Source: a virus. Taken from it: DNA of 64,000 nt. How positions within the stretch are numbered: the stretch's first letter is position 1; every line of letters starts with the position of its first letter. The translations under genes were made by a program, and so were the position numbers. Positions 9,781-35,879 of the stretch are shown here, one piece after another. The notes under the pieces were generated by a model. The model ran no database searches. It was not told the DNA's origin and saw nothing but the letters and a program-made list of their open reading frames with translations. The DNA lies in the IMG/VR virus record IMGVR_UViG_3300023082_000010, positions 28,421 to 92,420 of that record; one strand, 5' to 3'.

Positions 9781-10155
9781 TTAATTTGTTGGGTTAACTG
9801 TAATTGTATCCGTCACAGAGCCGTCTACAACTCTGACACTAAAGGTCAGTGAATAAATTCTGTTTACAAGAGTTGAGTCAAAAGTAACAATCTCTTTGAC
9901 TCCGGGCTCACTTAAAATAGCTTGTTGGAACAATAGGTCTACGCCAGCTTTTGAAGCTTGCTTGCGGCCTAATATCCTGCCCCAGTAATCTATACCGTAT
10001 GCTAGGTTCCAGAAGTACTCTCCCATAAAAGTCAAAAGCAATATTTTAAGCCTTTGAGCCACTGTTTCTGTATAAGGTTGTGTCGTTTCACTTTTACGTA
10101 AAGGACCATTCACCCAAACACAATCATGAGTCACTTCATCTAATTTTAAATCCAC
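9781..10155 (-). CDS. gp25/gpW-like baseplate wedge protein
   Basis: 124 aa. The core Q-R-L-K-I-L-L-L-T-F-x-G-E-Y-F-W-N-L-x-x-G-I-D-Y is the T4 gp25/P2 W lysozyme-like fold signature, here with the N-terminal variation typical of Mu-like phages. It connects sheath and wedge. It lies immediately upstream of the J gene. Confidence 0.88.
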   Translation of the reverse strand: MDLKLDEVTHDCVWVNGPLRKSETTQPYTETVAQRLKILLLTFMGEYFWNLAYGIDYWGRILGRKQASKAGVDLLFQQAILSEPGVKEIVTFDSTLVNRIYSLTFSVRVVDGSVTDTITVNPTN

Positions 10156-12960: not shown

Positions 12961-15237
12961 TTATTCACGGCTTGGGAAGTTAACTTGAGCTTGTTCAAAT
13001 GCACCAGTAAGTTGAGCTGTAAATGCTTCTGCCATAGCTTGTGCTTGAACTTCAATATCCATACCACCAAGGGTGGCTGCATCAACATTGATTGAGATAT
13101 CAAACTGATTGGTTTGTGTATTGTTGTTGGTGATTTGTTGATTAGCCTGAGACATGGCAGCAGATTTATTCATATCTGCCAACTCTTCTGGTGTAGTTGA
13201 GTTATACTGAGAGAGGTCTTGGAATGGCTGTCCTGAAGGAGTAACGTCTGGATTTCCGTAAAGCATAAGAGAAGCTTCTATCGGATTTCTGTTATCAAAT
13301 CCAAACCCTTGGTTCTTATAATTGTCGGAGATAATATCCCTTGTAGACAATGTACTCTTAAGCCTTTCACCAAGAGACTCCGCATCCATTGCTTCTTGTA
13401 CAGCATTCCCTAAAGCAACACCATCAGGATCAGCTTGGATAGCCTTAAAGTTCTGGTAGGCTTGAGCATTACCCTCACGATCTTGGTCAAACTTTGCAGG
13501 ATTCTGATAGAAAGGGGATGTAGGGTCATCATAAATAGCCCGCCCACGAAGTTTAGCCACTCCAAGACCAACACCGATATCTGTGATAGCATCACCAACA
13601 ACAGCAGCAGGACTTGTATAGGTCATACCGAATGCTGTAGCTTTTTCAGTTTCTGAGCGTTTACCTTTTTCAGGTACAGTAGGAAGATCGCCATTTTTCC
13701 AGCGCTCAAGTGCTGCAATTCCATTTAAAATAGCTGCAATTTCTTGAGAAGTAGCTTTAAGTGTCGGCAAGAAATCAAATTTAAGACCAGAAATATCAGT
13801 GAAGATTTGTTTAATTGCTTTCCAATCTTCTTGGAGTTGCTTAGTCTTACCTTCACCAAGCCAATTTGCCACAAGACTATCTTTACCTTCCAAGGCACGT
13901 ATGAAGGATTGTGGAAACAGTAGAAGATCATCAGCCCATTTTGTAGCGTTATTGAAGCCTTCTGCCAAGGTTTTAACTAACCCACCAGACTCACTTAGTC
14001 CAGCGTTAAGGGTGCGGAAAATACGAGCAAAACCCTCTTCTACACCTGAGTTTGAAGCTACTACAGCAAGATCGTTTACACTGTTCTGATATCGGGCTTG
14101 TTCGGCTTGGGATGCTGTAGAGGCTTTACCTAAAGCACCGCCCTCATTAGCCCGTTGCGAAGCTGTTGCACCGGCATATGTAAGAATCTCACTAGAAACA
14201 CTTCCTTTCTTCATATCCGCAAGAAGTTTTTGGATAGCAGCTTGCCCAGTTAATCCACCTCCCTGACCTTTAGCTGCTAGTTGAGCTTGATAAGCTTGGG
14301 CAAAGAGAGCTGTACCACCCGGCAAAGCCTCACTTATTTGGCCGACCAACTCTTCAGATTGCAATTTTCCTTTACCGGCAACTTGTGACAATGCCCTGAA
14401 CAATCTATTTTGAGTAGTCTTATCAAGTTTGTTTACACGGGCAAGCTCTGCAAAACCAGAGAATACTTTCTGACTTTCTTTAATACTAACACCAGAACCT
14501 GTCAATCCGGAAATAAGCTTGTTGTAATCACCGGAAGCGTCTAGGTAGTTAAACCCAATACGTTGACCTTCACCTCTCAAATACTGAAAAGAGTTACTAC
14601 CTTCTTGAGCAGTACCACCAGCTTGTTGTACCACAGCTTGAGATTGTAGCTGAGCACTAACCACTTGCTGGTTACGTTGGTTGAGCTGTGACAGACCATA
14701 GCCGCCGAGGGCCAACCCCAAGGCTGGAGCATAAAGGCGAGACAATCCACCAGCAATACCACCTGCTGCAACAGCAGACCTTCGTGGAATACCCCTTTCT
14801 GCTTCAGCCAATCCTTGTCCTGCAACACGAGGACGCAGCACCGAAGCAGCGGAAGCAACCTTAGTAGCCGCAACCATCGCTGCAATCATTGACGCGTTAA
14901 GATGAGACTGATCAACATTGAACTTTGCAATATGAAATGTTGTTCTTGTAGATGCAATATCTAAAGCTGTACCTAGTGCAATATTCAAGGCTGTCTGATT
15001 TACATCAAACTTGCCTATATTGAATACCGACTTAAGGCTTGCAATTTCTAAAGCTTTGGCAAGTTCAGCTTCAAGCTTTGTCTGGTTGACATTGAATCGA
15101 CCAAGTCGAAAACCACTAGCCCTACCACCTAAACCGTTTAGTCGAGCTTCTAAACCATCAAGAGTTGCATCAACTTTCTTTACAGAAGCTTTATCAATCT
15201 TGATGGAAAACTCTGAAAAGTATTCTGAAATCTTGAT
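12961..15237 (-). CDS. tape measure protein with non-canonical start (AUC/AUU)
   Basis: About 758 aa if started at ATC 15237. The frame is open from TAA 15246-15244. The first TTG is only at 14988, yet the 83 codons before it read as a normal tape-measure N-terminus (ISEYFSEFSIKIDKAS) followed by three related repeats (RFNVNQTKLE, KFDVNQTALN, KFNVDQSHLN). GGGAG (15251-15247) is 9 nt before ATC 15237 and 15 nt before ATT 15231, with no ATG/GTG/TTG in between. A hydrophobic Gly/Ala segment (GGIAGGLSRLYAPALGLALGG) may cross the membrane during DNA entry. It sets tail length. Confidence 0.85.
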   Translation of the reverse strand: MKISEYFSEFSIKIDKASVKKVDATLDGLEARLNGLGGRASGFRLGRFNVNQTKLEAELAKALEIASLKSVFNIGKFDVNQTALNIALGTALDIASTRTTFHIAKFNVDQSHLNASMIAAMVAATKVASAASVLRPRVAGQGLAEAERGIPRRSAVAAGGIAGGLSRLYAPALGLALGGYGLSQLNQRNQQVVSAQLQSQAVVQQAGGTAQEGSNSFQYLRGEGQRIGFNYLDASGDYNKLISGLTGSGVSIKESQKVFSGFAELARVNKLDKTTQNRLFRALSQVAGKGKLQSEELVGQISEALPGGTALFAQAYQAQLAAKGQGGGLTGQAAIQKLLADMKKGSVSSEILTYAGATASQRANEGGALGKASTASQAEQARYQNSVNDLAVVASNSGVEEGFARIFRTLNAGLSESGGLVKTLAEGFNNATKWADDLLLFPQSFIRALEGKDSLVANWLGEGKTKQLQEDWKAIKQIFTDISGLKFDFLPTLKATSQEIAAILNGIAALERWKNGDLPTVPEKGKRSETEKATAFGMTYTSPAAVVGDAITDIGVGLGVAKLRGRAIYDDPTSPFYQNPAKFDQDREGNAQAYQNFKAIQADPDGVALGNAVQEAMDAESLGERLKSTLSTRDIISDNYKNQGFGFDNRNPIEASLMLYGNPDVTPSGQPFQDLSQYNSTTPEELADMNKSAAMSQANQQITNNNTQTNQFDISINVDAATLGGMDIEVQAQAMAEAFTAQLTGAFEQAQVNFPSRE

Positions 15238-15252
15238 AGTATATTACTCCCG

Positions 15253-15519
15253 CTATTTCTTAGTATTCTTAGCTCGAATATCAGCTTGTTCTTTTTGTGC
15301 ATCATACATATCAAGCATTTCAATTGTATTGAACAAAGTTCTTACACTATATCTATCAGATAAAAACTTGGCTGCAAAATCAAATCCACCTTTTGGGTGT
15401 GTTGCTATGCGATAGATATAGAATGAACCTGAAAACTTATCTTGTATTTCTTTATCTACACTTGATACAGCCGCTAAAGATTTTTCTTTTACTCTTCTGT
15501 AGCGGGTGCCTGAAAAAAA
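15253..15519 (-). CDS. tail assembly chaperone, T-part reached by -1 frameshift
   Basis: This frame has no own start codon near its beginning. It is entered by a -1 slip on TTTTTTT (15519-15513) from the upstream chaperone, giving a 97 + 86 = 183-aa fusion. The new part reads SGTRYRRVKEKSLAAV... and ends AKNTKK at TAG 15255-15253. This matches the lambda G/GT arrangement just upstream of the tape measure: the short form and the fusion bind the tape measure during tail assembly. The T frame and tape measure are in the same frame, separated by TAG and TAA. Confidence 0.8.
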   Translation of the reverse strand, partial: FFSGTRYRRVKEKSLAAVSSVDKEIQDKFSGSFYIYRIATHPKGGFDFAAKFLSDRYSVRTLFNTIEMLDMYDAQKEQADIRAKNTKK

Positions 15520-15803
15520 TCAGGGAAGTTCCAAGTAATAACTTTCTGGTACAAGTCAGACAGATGCTTATACTTACGAGAGAACACAGCATCAAAGCGC
15601 TTCTCTGTAATCATCTGATTGTCTTTAGAAACATAGTTACAGATAACTTGTTTACGCATTGCAAGGTTATCTTTACCACTGTCCAACTCTTCTTGAAATT
15701 GCTCAAGAAATTGTAAACCTTTGGTAGTTGGCATAGCACTTACGAGGTACTGAACGCCATCAACTTCAATTTCAGTCTGTTCTAGGATTTCTAGAGTAGC
15801 CAT
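15489..15803 (-). CDS. tail assembly chaperone, G-like short form
   Basis: 104 aa (MATLEILEQTEIEVDG...), ending QAPATEE. It has the size, acidic helical character and position (between tube and tape measure) of lambda gpG-like chaperones. A T7 run at codons 95-97 permits production of a longer fusion. Confidence 0.78.
   Translation of the reverse strand: MATLEILEQTEIEVDGVQYLVSAMPTTKGLQFLEQFQEELDSGKDNLAMRKQVICNYVSKDNQMITEKRFDAVFSRKYKHLSDLYQKVITWNFPDFFQAPATEE
15513..15519 (-). promoter_or_regulatory. T7 slippery heptamer for -1 ribosomal frameshifting
   Basis: Frame zero reads GAT TTT TTT CAG. Seven consecutive T allow both P- and A-site tRNAs to re-pair after a -1 slip. The -1 frame is open from here to 15253. 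Confidence 0.75.
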
Positions 15804-17412: not shown

Positions 17413-18696
17413 TTATACAGAAAGGAAGCCATTTACGATGACTTTGCGAATGGACCCGGCCAGACGTGCCCGGAATACGAAAACACCAGCTGTACGAGCA
17501 GCACGAAGTGTTACTGGGATGTCCAATACATCAGGTGTAGTTACAGTCCAACCACGAGCAATCAAGCCATTAGCTTCTGCTTGAGAGAGTACGGAACGAA
17601 TTTCATTTTCAATGATAACCAAACCTTGGTTTGTCATTGGGATTTTCAAAGTGTTGATCAGGCGGAAGTAGATTTGCTCTTGCAGACGAGCATAAAGCCA
17701 GTCCACTCCAATCGTTTCGTCAATCGGTGTACCATCAAACATGTTACCATCTTGCATCACGTTGACACCACCAACAGCGGTGTACATGTTCATGTTCTTG
17801 GCACGAAGATTTGCACGAGCAGTGTCGCTAATGTTGCTGACAGTTACGCCAGATACACGTTTGAAATCCCAGTCGTTGCTGCCCGGAGTATAGGCAAGTT
17901 GAGCCCCCATCCAAGCTGCTTCAGGGTACTCAGTGTCGGCAGTAGGCAGATAGACGCCATAGGTGCGAGACGCGCTAGCAGCACTCAAAACAGCGGCAAT
18001 ATCGGTTGTTCCTGTGGTGATTACAGCAGGGTCTTGACTAGATGTACCGAAGATTTTACGGCGACTTGCAACAGCATTACTAAGAGCTACCACCTCAGCT
18101 TGAACATGGGTATCAGCAACTACTGCATACCAAGTGTTGTTAACTTGAGCAACGGCGTCCAAAGCATCAGCCATAGCTTCAGTTGACGCAACGTTGGTCT
18201 GAGTAAGGTTTGAGCTGCCAGTTACGCTCCAGTTGGAACCGGGAGTGGTTGGTGCCACAGTGAGGCTAGTTGTACCAGAAAGAGTAATGCCTGCTGGTGT
18301 ACCAATTGCAGCTTTCAAGCCAGTAACGATGCTAGTGGCAGTAGCACCAGTCCCAGAAGTGAAGGTGTACGGAACACCATTGACTGTGACAGTGTAGACA
18401 GTTGCATCTGCTACAGTTGGCACCAGTGTAGCACTATCAATCTGGCGACGACCAATTACGATACTTGGTGGGACAGCGCCAACAGCGCTTTGACCAAATT
18501 CTTTCTGAGCGATGATGTAAGCTTTGTCGGTAGCATTAAAGTCTTCTGCAACAGCATCCATGTCACCATAGACACGGGCACGTTCAGGGAAATTAGTGAA
18601 GGATGCCAGAATCAGGGGGATATTGAAACTAGCTGTGCTAACAGCGGTACTCTCCCGGCTAATCGTAATTTGTACTACGTTATCAATCTCACTCAT
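17413..18696 (-). CDS. contractile tail sheath protein (DUF3383-like)
   Basis: 427 aa. N-terminal VVQITISRESTAVSTASFNIPLI and later FPERARVYGDMDAVAEDF match DUF3383 sheath proteins. The C-terminal part (DWLYARLQEQIYFRLINTLKIPMTNQGL) is the conserved handshake domain. An inserted loop domain (~100-170) is Thr/Val-rich. The start ATG (18696-18694) overlaps the stop of a GIY-YIG endonuclease gene (ATGA). Confidence 0.92.
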   Translation of the reverse strand: MSEIDNVVQITISRESTAVSTASFNIPLILASFTNFPERARVYGDMDAVAEDFNATDKAYIIAQKEFGQSAVGAVPPSIVIGRRQIDSATLVPTVADATVYTVTVNGVPYTFTSGTGATATSIVTGLKAAIGTPAGITLSGTTSLTVAPTTPGSNWSVTGSSNLTQTNVASTEAMADALDAVAQVNNTWYAVVADTHVQAEVVALSNAVASRRKIFGTSSQDPAVITTGTTDIAAVLSAASASRTYGVYLPTADTEYPEAAWMGAQLAYTPGSNDWDFKRVSGVTVSNISDTARANLRAKNMNMYTAVGGVNVMQDGNMFDGTPIDETIGVDWLYARLQEQIYFRLINTLKIPMTNQGLVIIENEIRSVLSQAEANGLIARGWTVTTPDVLDIPVTLRAARTAGVFVFRARLAGSIRKVIVNGFLSV

Positions 18697-19478
18697 TGGT
18701 AAGGCCTCTTGCTGATTTCATAAGAATATTCATAGGTAAATCCTTCTTTGTTTTCATTTAAATTGTTAGAGATTTTACTTCTAGAAATACCTGTCTGTTT
18801 TGAGGCGCTTAGTATGGAGTCATAAACAATATTATCTATTTTAAACTTCCACTTACCAACTCTAGAATTCTTATTTTTAATGCTTATATCTTCTTCTACC
18901 AAACCTAGTGATATATGGAGATATAAAAGCTCGGGATCTTCATTTAAAGCTTCTGCTGCTTCTCGTAAAGTATTAAACCAAATACCTCTTACATACTGAG
19001 GAGCATCATATACAGACCCTTTTCTTGGATTAGATACTTCACCTAATATCCCTTGCCTTTTTCTGTTATGGAAGGTTACAGCAGCCATGCCAAGAGAAGC
19101 TAAGGCCACTCTTCTATTAGGAAACCAGAAACCTGATACAAATACTGGTTCATCATCAGACCTAGATGCAACTTTATGGCCTGTTCCACCAGCACCACCC
19201 GGCTTGATGTTGTAACCATTTTCCACTGTATTAAAAGCTGAAATGGCTTTTACTTCTAGATCATAAATATATTCTTTTGAGCCAACACATAACACATCAA
19301 AACTGAAATTCTCCGGGCCGTATTTATTTACAGCCTTTTTAATGATTGAATTTTTATTTTGATTAGGGTTGTAGAAGTGTTGTTTCTTTCGTGCGCTTAA
19401 GTTCTTAGTAACACCAATGTATAGCTTTCCATTTACCAAATTCGTAATCTTATAAAGATAGTGAACAATTTCTTTCAT
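18693..19478 (-). CDS. GIY-YIG homing endonuclease
   Basis: 261 aa. Motifs: YLYKITNLVNGKLYIGVTKN (GIY-YIG equivalents), a catalytic Arg in LSARKKQHF, the conserved Glu in LEVKAISAFNT, and NGYNIKPGGAGG. The C-terminal part has NUMOD-like DNA-binding repeats (GIWFNTLREAAEALN, SILSASKQTGISRSKISNNLN). It lies between the neck and sheath genes, same strand, with an ATGA overlap to the sheath gene. No intron signature was seen in the sheath gene, so it appears to be free-standing. Confidence 0.92.
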   Translation of the reverse strand: MKEIVHYLYKITNLVNGKLYIGVTKNLSARKKQHFYNPNQNKNSIIKKAVNKYGPENFSFDVLCVGSKEYIYDLEVKAISAFNTVENGYNIKPGGAGGTGHKVASRSDDEPVFVSGFWFPNRRVALASLGMAAVTFHNRKRQGILGEVSNPRKGSVYDAPQYVRGIWFNTLREAAEALNEDPELLYLHISLGLVEEDISIKNKNSRVGKWKFKIDNIVYDSILSASKQTGISRSKISNNLNENKEGFTYEYSYEISKRPYQ

Positions 19479-26156: not shown

Positions 26157-27880
26157 TCAAAGCCTGAATTCGTTTGTCTTGGTGTAGATGGGAACTGCGA
26201 AGGATGGTACGCTTTTGTTTTGTGCCAAAGTGAGGTAGGCCAAAGAAGCACAGTCTGCCATATCATCGTGGCCCATTTCTCCACTACGTCTCTGTCCATC
26301 AAAAGCTTCAAGTTCCTTGTGAAAGAAATCATTATCCGCTACAATTTTATTCCAAAGATCATTGCAGCAACCTTTCACAATAGAAACAACACCTAGTTCG
26401 GCAGATGCAGCAAAAGGTCTGAAGGAGTCCAGCTTACCTAGTGATGCTCTTTTTGTTTTAACCACATATCCATGTTCAATAATAGAACGAGCTATTAGCA
26501 TAGTAGATGCCTTAGCTGCTGGGTTAGGGTCTTCTCCGAGAATAATTTCTACTTCGGGACCATCCCTTTGAGCACTGTCTAGGATTTGTTTTTCCCAATC
26601 ACCAAATGTTATTCGTGTTCTATAGACATCAAGGATCACATAATTACCATTTCTCAGCTTACCAAGCTTCAATGAGGCGAAGTAATCGGGCGATCTGTTT
26701 CCGTCGTGTGGCAAAGTGCCAGCGAAGTCAAAAACCCGAACTACCTTTGAAAACTCTGAATGGTGGGGTGCTTGAGTCAACACTGGAACAGTATTCCTAT
26801 CGTAATAGGTGCTGTTCTCCGGCTTTGCAAACCAATTCCCATAGAGCAATCGCTCGCGGTCAAGTTTTGGAAGAGATTCCAAATTTGAGCGATATAGTGG
26901 GTTACTTTTCTTCAGTGGGGGGTTATCATCAATAGTGCCAAATAACCCTTGAAAGCTAATTGGCTTTACTTGATCGTCATGTTCGGCTTCTAATTTAGGA
27001 TTTCCGTACTTGTCAATAAGCTCTTGCGCACTTTCACCCCAAACAATATCACCAGCCACTCGGAGCAGATAACGAACTGTGCCATTCTTTTCTGGGTCTG
27101 GGCGGCCAGCTAGTGCATGGCCCTCTGGATATAAATACCATTGTGCGTACTTTAGAAGCCAGCTTGAATTGTCAGGATTGCATGACATGACAATTCCGTG
27201 GACATTCTTCGCCTCAGACCTAAGCCGCGACCAAAGCCACCAAATATCTTCTTCCTCCGCGTGAGTTGCCTCATCATAAAAGATATTTGAAATTTGAATA
27301 CCTTGATATTTCTTAGCTGCGTTAGCATTCTCATAGTGCGAGAAGCTAATCTCTGCACCACTAGAAAATACTAATTTTTGATCTTTCAATCGAATTTTAA
27401 GACTAGGATCATACTGACTATATAGTTTAACTGCTTCCTGAAACAGACCACCAGAAGCCATAATCGCACTGGAGTTCTTACGAATACAATAAGCCTTATA
27501 GTTTGGATCTTCTACGAAACGAAGATGCCGCATTAACCCAACATAACTTTTGGAACTACCCAATAAATTCTAAGGTTCGTTAAACCTTCTCACATTTCTA
27601 TGAGGATCGGACTATATCACCTGTTATTTCTAACAGCCCCCCGTTTCGATTGCACTTGCAACCTACTCTGCTACACTCATCACAGATAGTCTCTGAACGT
27701 TACTTATTTCTAAGTCTTCGCTGCTGATTACCTTTAACTTAATAGTAAGGGTTCCAGCAATTAGAGGGGTTTAAAGCGGCCCGTAGTTCAAGCCGCCCCT
27801 CCAACTAGGAGGATTTGAGCATCTGAGAGCAGGTATTGCGATTGGAACCTGCTCTGAGCTGAGATAACAGTTTCTGTCAT
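26157..27880 (-). CDS. terL: large terminase subunit, gene split by a group I intron
   Basis: Exon 1 is 27880-27791 (30 codons, starting MTETVISAQSRFQ and ending LLVGGAA); exon 2 is 27560-26157 (GSSKSYVGLMRHLRF...). Splicing out 27790-27561 restores the Walker A motif G-G-A-A-G-S-S-K-S (residues 27-35) and gives a 497-aa protein. Walker B/catalytic Glu are in IFYDEATHAEEED (~124-134). The C-terminal RNase H-like nuclease begins at VRVFDFAGTLPHD and includes DDMADC. Without splicing the first exon runs into TGA at 27790. It cuts concatemers and pumps DNA through the portal. Confidence 0.93.
27561..27790 (-). ncRNA. group I intron in terL
   Basis: 230 nt without ORF. Conserved elements in order (leftward): P AATTGCTGGAACCC (27762-27749), Q GGTAATCAGCAGC (27732-27720), R GTTCAGAGACTA (27698-27687), S GATATAGTCC (27618-27609). 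P7 forms from GACTAT and ATAGTC. P1: exon GCGGCU (27796-27791) pairs with GGCCGC (27781-27776), giving U.G at the 5' splice site. P10: GAACTAC (27789-27783) pairs with GTAGTTC at the start of exon 2. The intron ends in G (27561). CTGTTA-GAAA-TAACAG forms a tetraloop stem before S. Confidence 0.95.
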
Positions 27881-28614
27881 ACTTGCACCAGTTTAATCCT
27901 TTTAGTTCTTGGAGTTTTTGAGGCTGCTGATTTGTTTTCAAACTCAGTAGCGAAAATACAAGCTTCTCTAGAATAAACTTTATTACCTTCAAATTTAAGA
28001 TCTTTGTCTAAATTATAAGGGCTTGTACCGAGCTGTTTAGCTTCCAACCAAGAATCAAAATTATCTAAACTGGAGATGTCTGAAAGAAAGTTAGCAAAAC
28101 AATGCCACCTCGTATCTACGAAACATTTGCCAAAATACCCATGAGCATCTTTAGGATTATAACAACGCTTCATCATATTTGACCAAAGCTGCTTAGCTTG
28201 TTTCCAATAAGGCAGAAGCTCATACTCTCCTAAATAACCAATCCCAAGAAAGGTTTTGCTATAAGGATCGGATATTTTACCCATCCGTACATTATCAATG
28301 TGTACTTCTGCTGTGTAGCCTGTATCATAGAATTGAACTACGCACTTCTTGGACTTCTTACTAATAATTTTTCCACTGTATCCAGCATTATTAGTAAACT
28401 CTTCGTCCCAAGGTTGCCAGTCGTGAGCTGTACATTTTGGTACGCTAAAGTCTCTAACCTTACCAGCAAGTACATTGCCAGCGTCAGCTGTTGTTTCATA
28501 ACCTGTAGTAACAAATCTTAAATGTAGTTTTCGGCCATCTCGACCAATAACTTCCATAATTCCGTAGCCATTCGACTCGTAAAACTGATCATAAATTTTT
28601 CTTACATTAGCCAT
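27877..28614 (-). CDS. homing endonuclease beside terL, AP2 part missing
   Basis: 245 aa. Two tandem N-terminal modules of ~55 residues (each with K/R-x-x-V-x-F-x-x-T-G-Y and N-V-x-x-G-K-(V/I)-x-D) are followed by the family core (NMMKRCYNPKD, W-H-C-F-A-N-F, LDKDLKFEGNKVYSREACIF). Unlike its relatives it ends ~20 residues later, so the AP2-like C-terminus is absent. Its TGA overlaps the ATG of terL exon 1 (ATGA). It lies outside the intron, upstream of exon 1, with its own GGGAG site. It may home into intron-less terL and carry the intron along. Confidence 0.85.
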   Translation of the reverse strand: MANVRKIYDQFYESNGYGIMEVIGRDGRKLHLRFVTTGYETTADAGNVLAGKVRDFSVPKCTAHDWQPWDEEFTNNAGYSGKIISKKSKKCVVQFYDTGYTAEVHIDNVRMGKISDPYSKTFLGIGYLGEYELLPYWKQAKQLWSNMMKRCYNPKDAHGYFGKCFVDTRWHCFANFLSDISSLDNFDSWLEAKQLGTSPYNLDKDLKFEGNKVYSREACIFATEFENKSAASKTPRTKRIKLVQV

Positions 28615-35802: not shown

Positions 35803-35879
35803 TGGTGGGTCCATCCAGACTTGAACTGGAAATCAACGAATTATGAGTTCGCTGCATTAACCAATTATGCTACAGACCC
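35803..35879 (-). tRNA. tRNA with CAT anticodon (Met or Ile2)
   Basis: Full cloverleaf with encoded CCA: acceptor GGGTCTG/TGGACCC, D-arm GCAT...ATGC, anticodon stem GCGAA/TTCGT with loop CTCATAA (anticodon at 35845-35843), T-arm TCCAG-TTCAAGT-CTGGA. It could be elongator tRNA-Met or tRNA-Ile with modified C34; sequence alone does not decide. Confidence 0.93.

Follow-up and report, generated by a model that had tools for sequence, protein, structure and literature searches.

A strongly supported AUC start in a phage tape measure gene and the recurrence of AUU, AUC and AUA starts in two tail genes of its relatives

The DNA analysed here, hereafter the window, is a stretch of 64,000 nt from the IMG/VR virus record IMGVR_UViG_3300023082_000010 (record positions 28,421 to 92,420). 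Its minus strand carries a tail operon in the order sheath, tubes, tail assembly chaperone G, chaperone extension T, tape measure protein (TMP), Dit-like protein, plug, hub, spike, wedge and baseplate J. The features on which the argument turns are given below, with the start codons AUU, AUC and AUA collectively termed AUH and the Shine-Dalgarno sequence abbreviated SD.

15489..15803, minus strand: tail assembly chaperone G (TAC_15; PF21822, E 2e-4; phrog_1613, E 1e-6)
15513..15519, minus strand: run of seven T, likely the -1 slippery site, as judged from the sequence
15253..15519, minus strand: chaperone extension T in the -1 frame, an open frame without a start, as in its homologues; probably expressed as a GT frameshift product
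15247..15251, minus strand: SD GGGAG, duplex energy -6.9 kcal/mol
15235..15237, minus strand: proposed TMP start codon ATC, aligned with the TTG, GTG or ATG of relatives
12961..15237, minus strand: TMP gene (TMP_3), 758 codons from the ATC, with homologues in IMG/VR
14860..15111, minus strand: three TMP N-terminal repeats of about 25 residues, read from the translation
14986..14988, minus strand: TTG, the first canonical start in the TMP frame, rejected as the start
9781..10155, minus strand: baseplate wedge subunit (phrog_120)

The TMP assignment rests on matches to PF20155 (E 9e-11) and to nine named PHROG tape-measure families, and on gene position, with TAC_15 upstream and Dit_like as the next gene. 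The TMP frame (12961..15243) is open over 760 codons and, after a TAA at 15246-15244, begins TAT ACT ATC AAG ATT. The first-pass annotation had reported that the first 83 codons contain no ATG, GTG or TTG, that GGGAG precedes ATC 15237 by 9 nt, and that the N-terminus holds three repeats; each of these observations was reproduced. The first canonical start is TTG 14988, at codon +83 from ATC 15237; GGGAG occupies 15251-15247, separated by a 9-nt spacer from the ATC at 15237-15235; and the repeats, of the form F..G/AKF(N/D)V(N/D)Q..LN.., recur at intervals of 29 residues over codons 43-126, with repeats 2 and 3 aligning in relatives. Taken by itself, however, a start-less gap of 83 codons is weak evidence, its chance being 0.02 under the codon usage found elsewhere in the gene and 0.03 when the amino acids are given, and the case for an AUC start therefore depends on comparison with relatives.

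An ORF at 18693-19478 (minus strand), between tail genes of the window, has by eye the look of a GIY-YIG homing endonuclease. For the terminase large-subunit frame (26157-27563, minus strand), the match to its PHROG starts only at position 176 of the profile, and a separate ORF of unknown type (27877-28614, minus strand) lies upstream; an intron or an inserted gene may thus divide the terminase gene. In three relatives (L012, L029 and L116), the TMP frame ends near the same place, at about codon 272-274, and in L012 the remainder follows in another frame; a shared frameshift, an intron or the insertion of a homing gene could each produce such a break.

Three scans of IMG/VR yielded TMP homologues with 72 distinct N-termini, in which the start column was located by counting back from an invariant isoleucine of the TMP (for L085 the start was set by hand from 'CAA' to ATG). 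This column holds TTG in 35, ATG in 18, GTG in 13, ATT in four and ATC in two sequences. The six AUH members are the window and L015, with ATC, and L003, L088, L109 (identical to L057) and L059, with ATT. Five of the six share the arrangement GGAG-TAA-YAT-ANN-ATH, L015 having GGGG in place of GGAG; in the near relatives that start at TTG or GTG, the SD is likewise 9 nt away (GGAGTAATAAACATTG), and GGAG lies 9 nt ahead of the start in most near relatives as well as in five of the six AUH genes. On a quick LG+G4 tree of 70 rows, to be read with the caution that TMPs recombine, the AUH label changes five times, all forced by starred branches, and start class as a whole changes at least 24 times. 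The AUH members fall into two clades, one of them containing the window, L015, L088 and L003 intermixed with TTG, GTG and ATG members, and the other L109 and L059. From this alignment, the start at AUC 15237-15235 proposed in the first-pass annotation is strongly supported. The AUH start in TMP is both old and recurrent, and it is retained between pairs of genes with dS >1.

The TMP gene avoids AUG more generally. ATG is the start in 18 of 72 TMPs vs 478 of 508 starts in eight neighbouring structural gene sets (Fisher 1e-38, kinship ignored), the latter taken from an SD-based caller after five rows without a call were dropped and including two paralogous tube models, by which some ORFs may have been counted twice; the starts of L019 and of the L012 fragment were taken from the alignment rather than from the caller.

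A second gene of the same operon, encoding the baseplate wedge subunit, has the same property. Among 74 distinct relatives, retained from 81 rows after seven with a shifted N-terminus were dropped, the wedge gene starts with ATG in 29, TTG in 15, GTG in 12, ATA in seven, ATT in six and ATC in five, such that 18 of the 74 are AUH genes; the window itself has GTG. AUH in the wedge gene changes seven times (six forced) on a careful 51-row tree and 15 times (eight forced) on a quick 74-row tree, and wedge start codons of all classes undergo 34 changes. What sets the AUH wedge genes apart is their SD: the extended sequence GGAGGTG precedes 15 of the 18 AUH genes vs none of the 56 canonical ones (p 4e-13), and the SD energy is -14.7 vs -8.2 kcal/mol. 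The weaker codon is, therefore, offset by a stronger SD, and the wedge gene has the extended SD of an infC-type initiation region. The AUH TMPs differ on this point, as their SD energy (-6.55 kcal/mol) is close to that of canonical TMPs (-6.75 kcal/mol) and the extended SD of the infC type is lacking. Between them, the TMP and wedge genes use all six of the bacterial start codons named in the accessible part of a review (PMC4611024).

AUH starts in TMP and in wedge were not found together in one phage, L015 having no wedge row. The trait is wider than the single gene for which the first-pass annotation proposed it, extending to six TMPs and 18 wedge genes, and narrower than a host-wide change of code. 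The latter was considered and rejected, since AUH usage is gene-specific and phages with an AUH TMP start their wedge genes with GTG, TTG or ATG (L015 again excepted). The position of the start, its reading frame, its conservation, its recurrence and the parallel wedge case can all be read directly from the sequences.

The junction between the chaperone and TMP genes suggests how such a start might be used. The T frame ends at a TAG (15255-15253) that lies 15 nt ahead of ATC 15237, with the SD between the two and, in the window, no intervening gene, an arrangement of start and nearby upstream stop of the kind expected for translational coupling. The GT stop lies 14-15 nt before the start in five of the six AUH TMPs and 6 nt before it in L015, and a gap of 14 nt is found in 27 of the 72 TMPs. 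Coupling further predicts a hairpin that hides the SD. Some relatives may have one: their SD, CGGAGUA, can pair with TMP codons 6-8 (UACUUCG), the Tyr codon there is TAC in 23 of 29 members with GGAGTA vs 12 of 35 without (p 4e-4, kinship ignored), and the hairpin z averages -0.80 in 30 GGAGTA members. In the window, z is +0.82 and such a hairpin is absent, so that the hairpin stays a hint. Separately, the TMP leader AAGGAGCTTCCTG-TTG of four relatives (L098, L095, L113 and L081) can hide its own SD, with z about -3.7 to -3.9 relative to synonymous variants.

We propose, with a probability of about 0.75, that the TMP of the window is made from an inherently weak AUC start and that its output is tied to GT termination, so that few copies are produced. 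From the sequence we infer initiation with fMet, low efficiency, coupling to GT and an effect on dosage. The initiator fMet-tRNA of the host would read AUC despite a third-position mismatch, guided by the GGGAG upstream; an AUH codon forms two base pairs with the CAU anticodon and is discriminated against by initiation factor IF3. UUG, GUG, AUU and AUC would form a set of weak starts used by TMP across this myovirus-like phage family, with AUC a stable member whose role may be to limit the initiation that TMP achieves by itself. Free initiation on an AUH TMP would indeed be expected to be poor, given that no extended SD compensates for the codon, and expression might then be too low for use unless it is coupled; poor free initiation together with a GT stop close upstream favours reinitiation, in which ribosomes just finishing frameshifted GT would go on to TMP. 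The outcome would be the few TMP copies that tails need, made along with the chaperone. That the AUH start keeps TMP low, as the first-pass annotation suggested, is plausible, in view of the ordinary SD at TMP and of AUU and AUA starts in Staphylococcus aureus, which even with an extended SD gave about 10% of the AUG reporter output in poor medium, according to the available part of PMC13009471.

A broader and more tentative reading, to which we give somewhat less than even odds, is that this phage family sets the dosage of its low-copy tail parts by AUH starts in a general and evolvable way, through two designs. In the wedge gene, AUH would be combined with a full-length SD whose strength compensates for the codon. 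In TMP, AUH would be combined with an ordinary SD just after GT, such that initiation would need the ribosomes that have translated GT, keeping TMP and chaperone in step.

Of the alternatives, the one that survives best, though we consider it improbable, makes AUH starts a sensor of IF3, whereby the level of host IF3 during infection would set TMP and wedge synthesis. IF3 represses AUU, AUC and AUA starts as well as too-extended SDs (PMC4611024, in the part available), the very pairing found in the wedge gene, and in sigR such repression can fix a stoichiometry (PMC5472188, likewise seen in part). Against it, the AUH TMPs are without an extended SD, and starts flip among UUG, GUG, AUG and AUH (the 24 or more changes in TMP and 34 in wedge counted above), unlike conserved regulation. 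None of 12 phage records contained an IF3_C domain. With no phage IF3 in these records and a TMP_3 domain in the TMP product, infC-type autoregulation is inapplicable here, and the tie to IF3 that the first-pass annotation raised would have to involve the IF3 of the host.

A phage-encoded initiator tRNA was likewise considered and rejected. Initiator tRNAs are recognized by the type of their acceptor end and by a GGG/CCC anticodon stem. The window has a lone tRNA with a CAU anticodon (35803-35879, minus strand), which by eye has a G1:C72-type acceptor end and no GGG/CCC anticodon stem and is not an initiator. It is elongator-like and could be a tRNA-Met or a lysidine-type Ile2 tRNA. No other CAU tRNA was found in 22 stretches scanned (the remainder of G000 plus four further records).

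Considerably less probable than the IF3 sensor is the reading that TMP lacks a start of its own and that ribosomes pass into it from GT by stop readthrough or bypassing, an option proposed for phage Corndog, whose TMP has no canonical start and in which the mechanism is not settled in the available text (PMC4351075). GT and TMP are in frame, 15 nt apart, in the window, and in frame also in L015. Readthrough would, however, have to cross two stops (TAG and TAA) between the GT and TMP frames of the window, GT is in a different frame in the four ATT members, and in relatives the very codon occupied by AUH is an ordinary TTG, GTG or ATG, equally far from its SD. Use of the adjacent TAT, ACT or ATT 15231 in place of the ATC is very unlikely and ranks just below readthrough: all of these codons lie near the SD, and ATT 15231 is itself AUH, yet canonical starts of relatives align with the ATC column alone, and 15231 encodes the invariant isoleucine of the protein.

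Initiation at TTG 14988, with the frame ahead of it left untranslated, merits hardly any weight, even if this first canonical in-frame codon is the likely choice of a gene finder. The TTG has no SD upstream, and the 83 codons that precede it are conserved as protein. Over the first 81-82 codons, comparison of the window with six relatives gives pN/pS of 0.18-0.44 at pS of 0.60-0.82; synonymous sites downstream of the ATC are near saturation, the window and L015 differ at 12, 7 and 36 sites in codon positions 1, 2 and 3, and 12 columns of the aligned N-terminus are invariant. The N-terminal 83 codons are, on this comparative evidence, translated. An assembly or sequencing error in a true ATG, TTG or GTG is equally remote: the window is one metagenome contig, but ATC or ATT stands at the same codon in five other contigs, 18 of 74 wedge genes are AUH, and the shared position, the third-position bias and low pN/pS after the ATC, and the AUH pairs at dS >1 exclude both such an error and a fresh mutation.

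A scan for start-less N-termini covered 859 homologue-bearing ORFs from nine phage records, overlapping ORFs having been removed. The only recognisable families shared by several genomes and having a long, conserved N-terminus without a start were TMP, wedge and the T half of the frameshifted chaperone; the 119 ORFs flagged were mostly short leaders before an SD and ATG, with a few short frames having one or two homologues and being unconvincing. Near matches to the TMP pattern were found in 19 IMG/VR stretches, four of them TMP and 15 not credible (three with an overlapping ATG), and two additional scans returned no further contigs with an AUH TMP. The wedge pattern matched 14 stretches, namely 11 wedge genes, two short frames and one other ORF; in L181, an ATG is also present six codons upstream. 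The pattern GGAGGTGTRYHATH occurred in eight of 36 phage records, once in each, and its reversed control gave none. The one other ORF encodes an unrelated 209-aa product on the reverse strand of L185 (IMGVR 3300014656_001388, near 1992-2010), follows GGAGGTGTATC-ATT and has no canonical start for 49 codons, making it a further AUH candidate. In tBLASTn searches of isolates, the middle of the TMP alone matched, among the matches listed; queries with the TMP N-terminus and a DNA search gave no matches, and a search of genome contigs for relatives found none.

These observations bear on annotation and on tail biology alike. Gene finders restricted to ATG, GTG and TTG cut AUH genes short, and the TMP of the window would lose 83 codons. 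An AUH start in the gene of the ruler protein, and in a second tail gene of many relatives, suggests an unusual limit on low-copy parts; dependence of TMP initiation on GT termination, if true, would explain a scarce ruler protein matched to its chaperone. Two tail genes in which AUG, GUG, UUG and AUH replace one another, with matching SD changes in one of them, constitute a natural experiment on the trade-off between codon and SD.

Among cultured phages, the syntenic chaperone, TMP and wedge operon is found in Pseudomonas phages M1, NoPa, PaP1, PAK_P3, Pyxpy02 and Boevelstad, in Rheinheimera phage Barba21A and in Acinetobacter phage TaPaz. These eight isolates differ from the window in that none of their 16 TMP and wedge starts is AUH, all being ATG except for the GTG of the M1 wedge gene. 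The closest parallel is Corndog, described here from the accessible portion of PMC4351075: its TMP also follows a frameshifted chaperone, its N-terminal part likewise has no ATG, GTG or TTG and is shown by peptides to be translated, and its odd codon aligns with the ATG of relatives. Corndog differs in that the codon is ACG, with an ACG start or bypass both entertained, and in that an HNH gene is inserted ahead of TMP, where the window has none; that portion of the text mentions neither an AUH codon nor recurrence in two lineages. Barba21A (L275) also has an HNH gene between chaperone and TMP (2152-2790), as in Corndog.

AUU, AUC and AUA starts have so far been documented in bacteria gene by gene. 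In the portions of the sources available, AUU starts are described for Escherichia coli infC and pcnB and S. aureus cvfC1, and AUA starts for S. aureus infC, ccpN and citZ (PMC13009471, PMC5472188, PMC4611024). In these genes, AUH lowers initiation and the SD is extended, as in the AUH wedge genes; they differ in being cellular, and the phage TMP is without the extended SD. Streptomyces sigR is similar in that a weak start sets the ratio of two proteins in one pathway, whereas its codon is GTC, it is a host regulator and its repression by IF3 is experimental (available part of PMC5472188). For a tailed phage, an AUU start was predicted, and resequenced, in orf28 of TP-J34; according to the accessible part of PMC3952083, the primers indicate the terminase region, and the case concerns one gene with no comparative set or SD analysis. 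Among the listings and passages of the open-access literature searched, none reported AUH starts in TMP or wedge genes, and none described such starts as recurrent in two tail genes of phages together with a compensating SD. AUH starts are already known, then, from infC, pcnB, the S. aureus genes and TP-J34 orf28; their recurrence in two tail genes varies this known theme.
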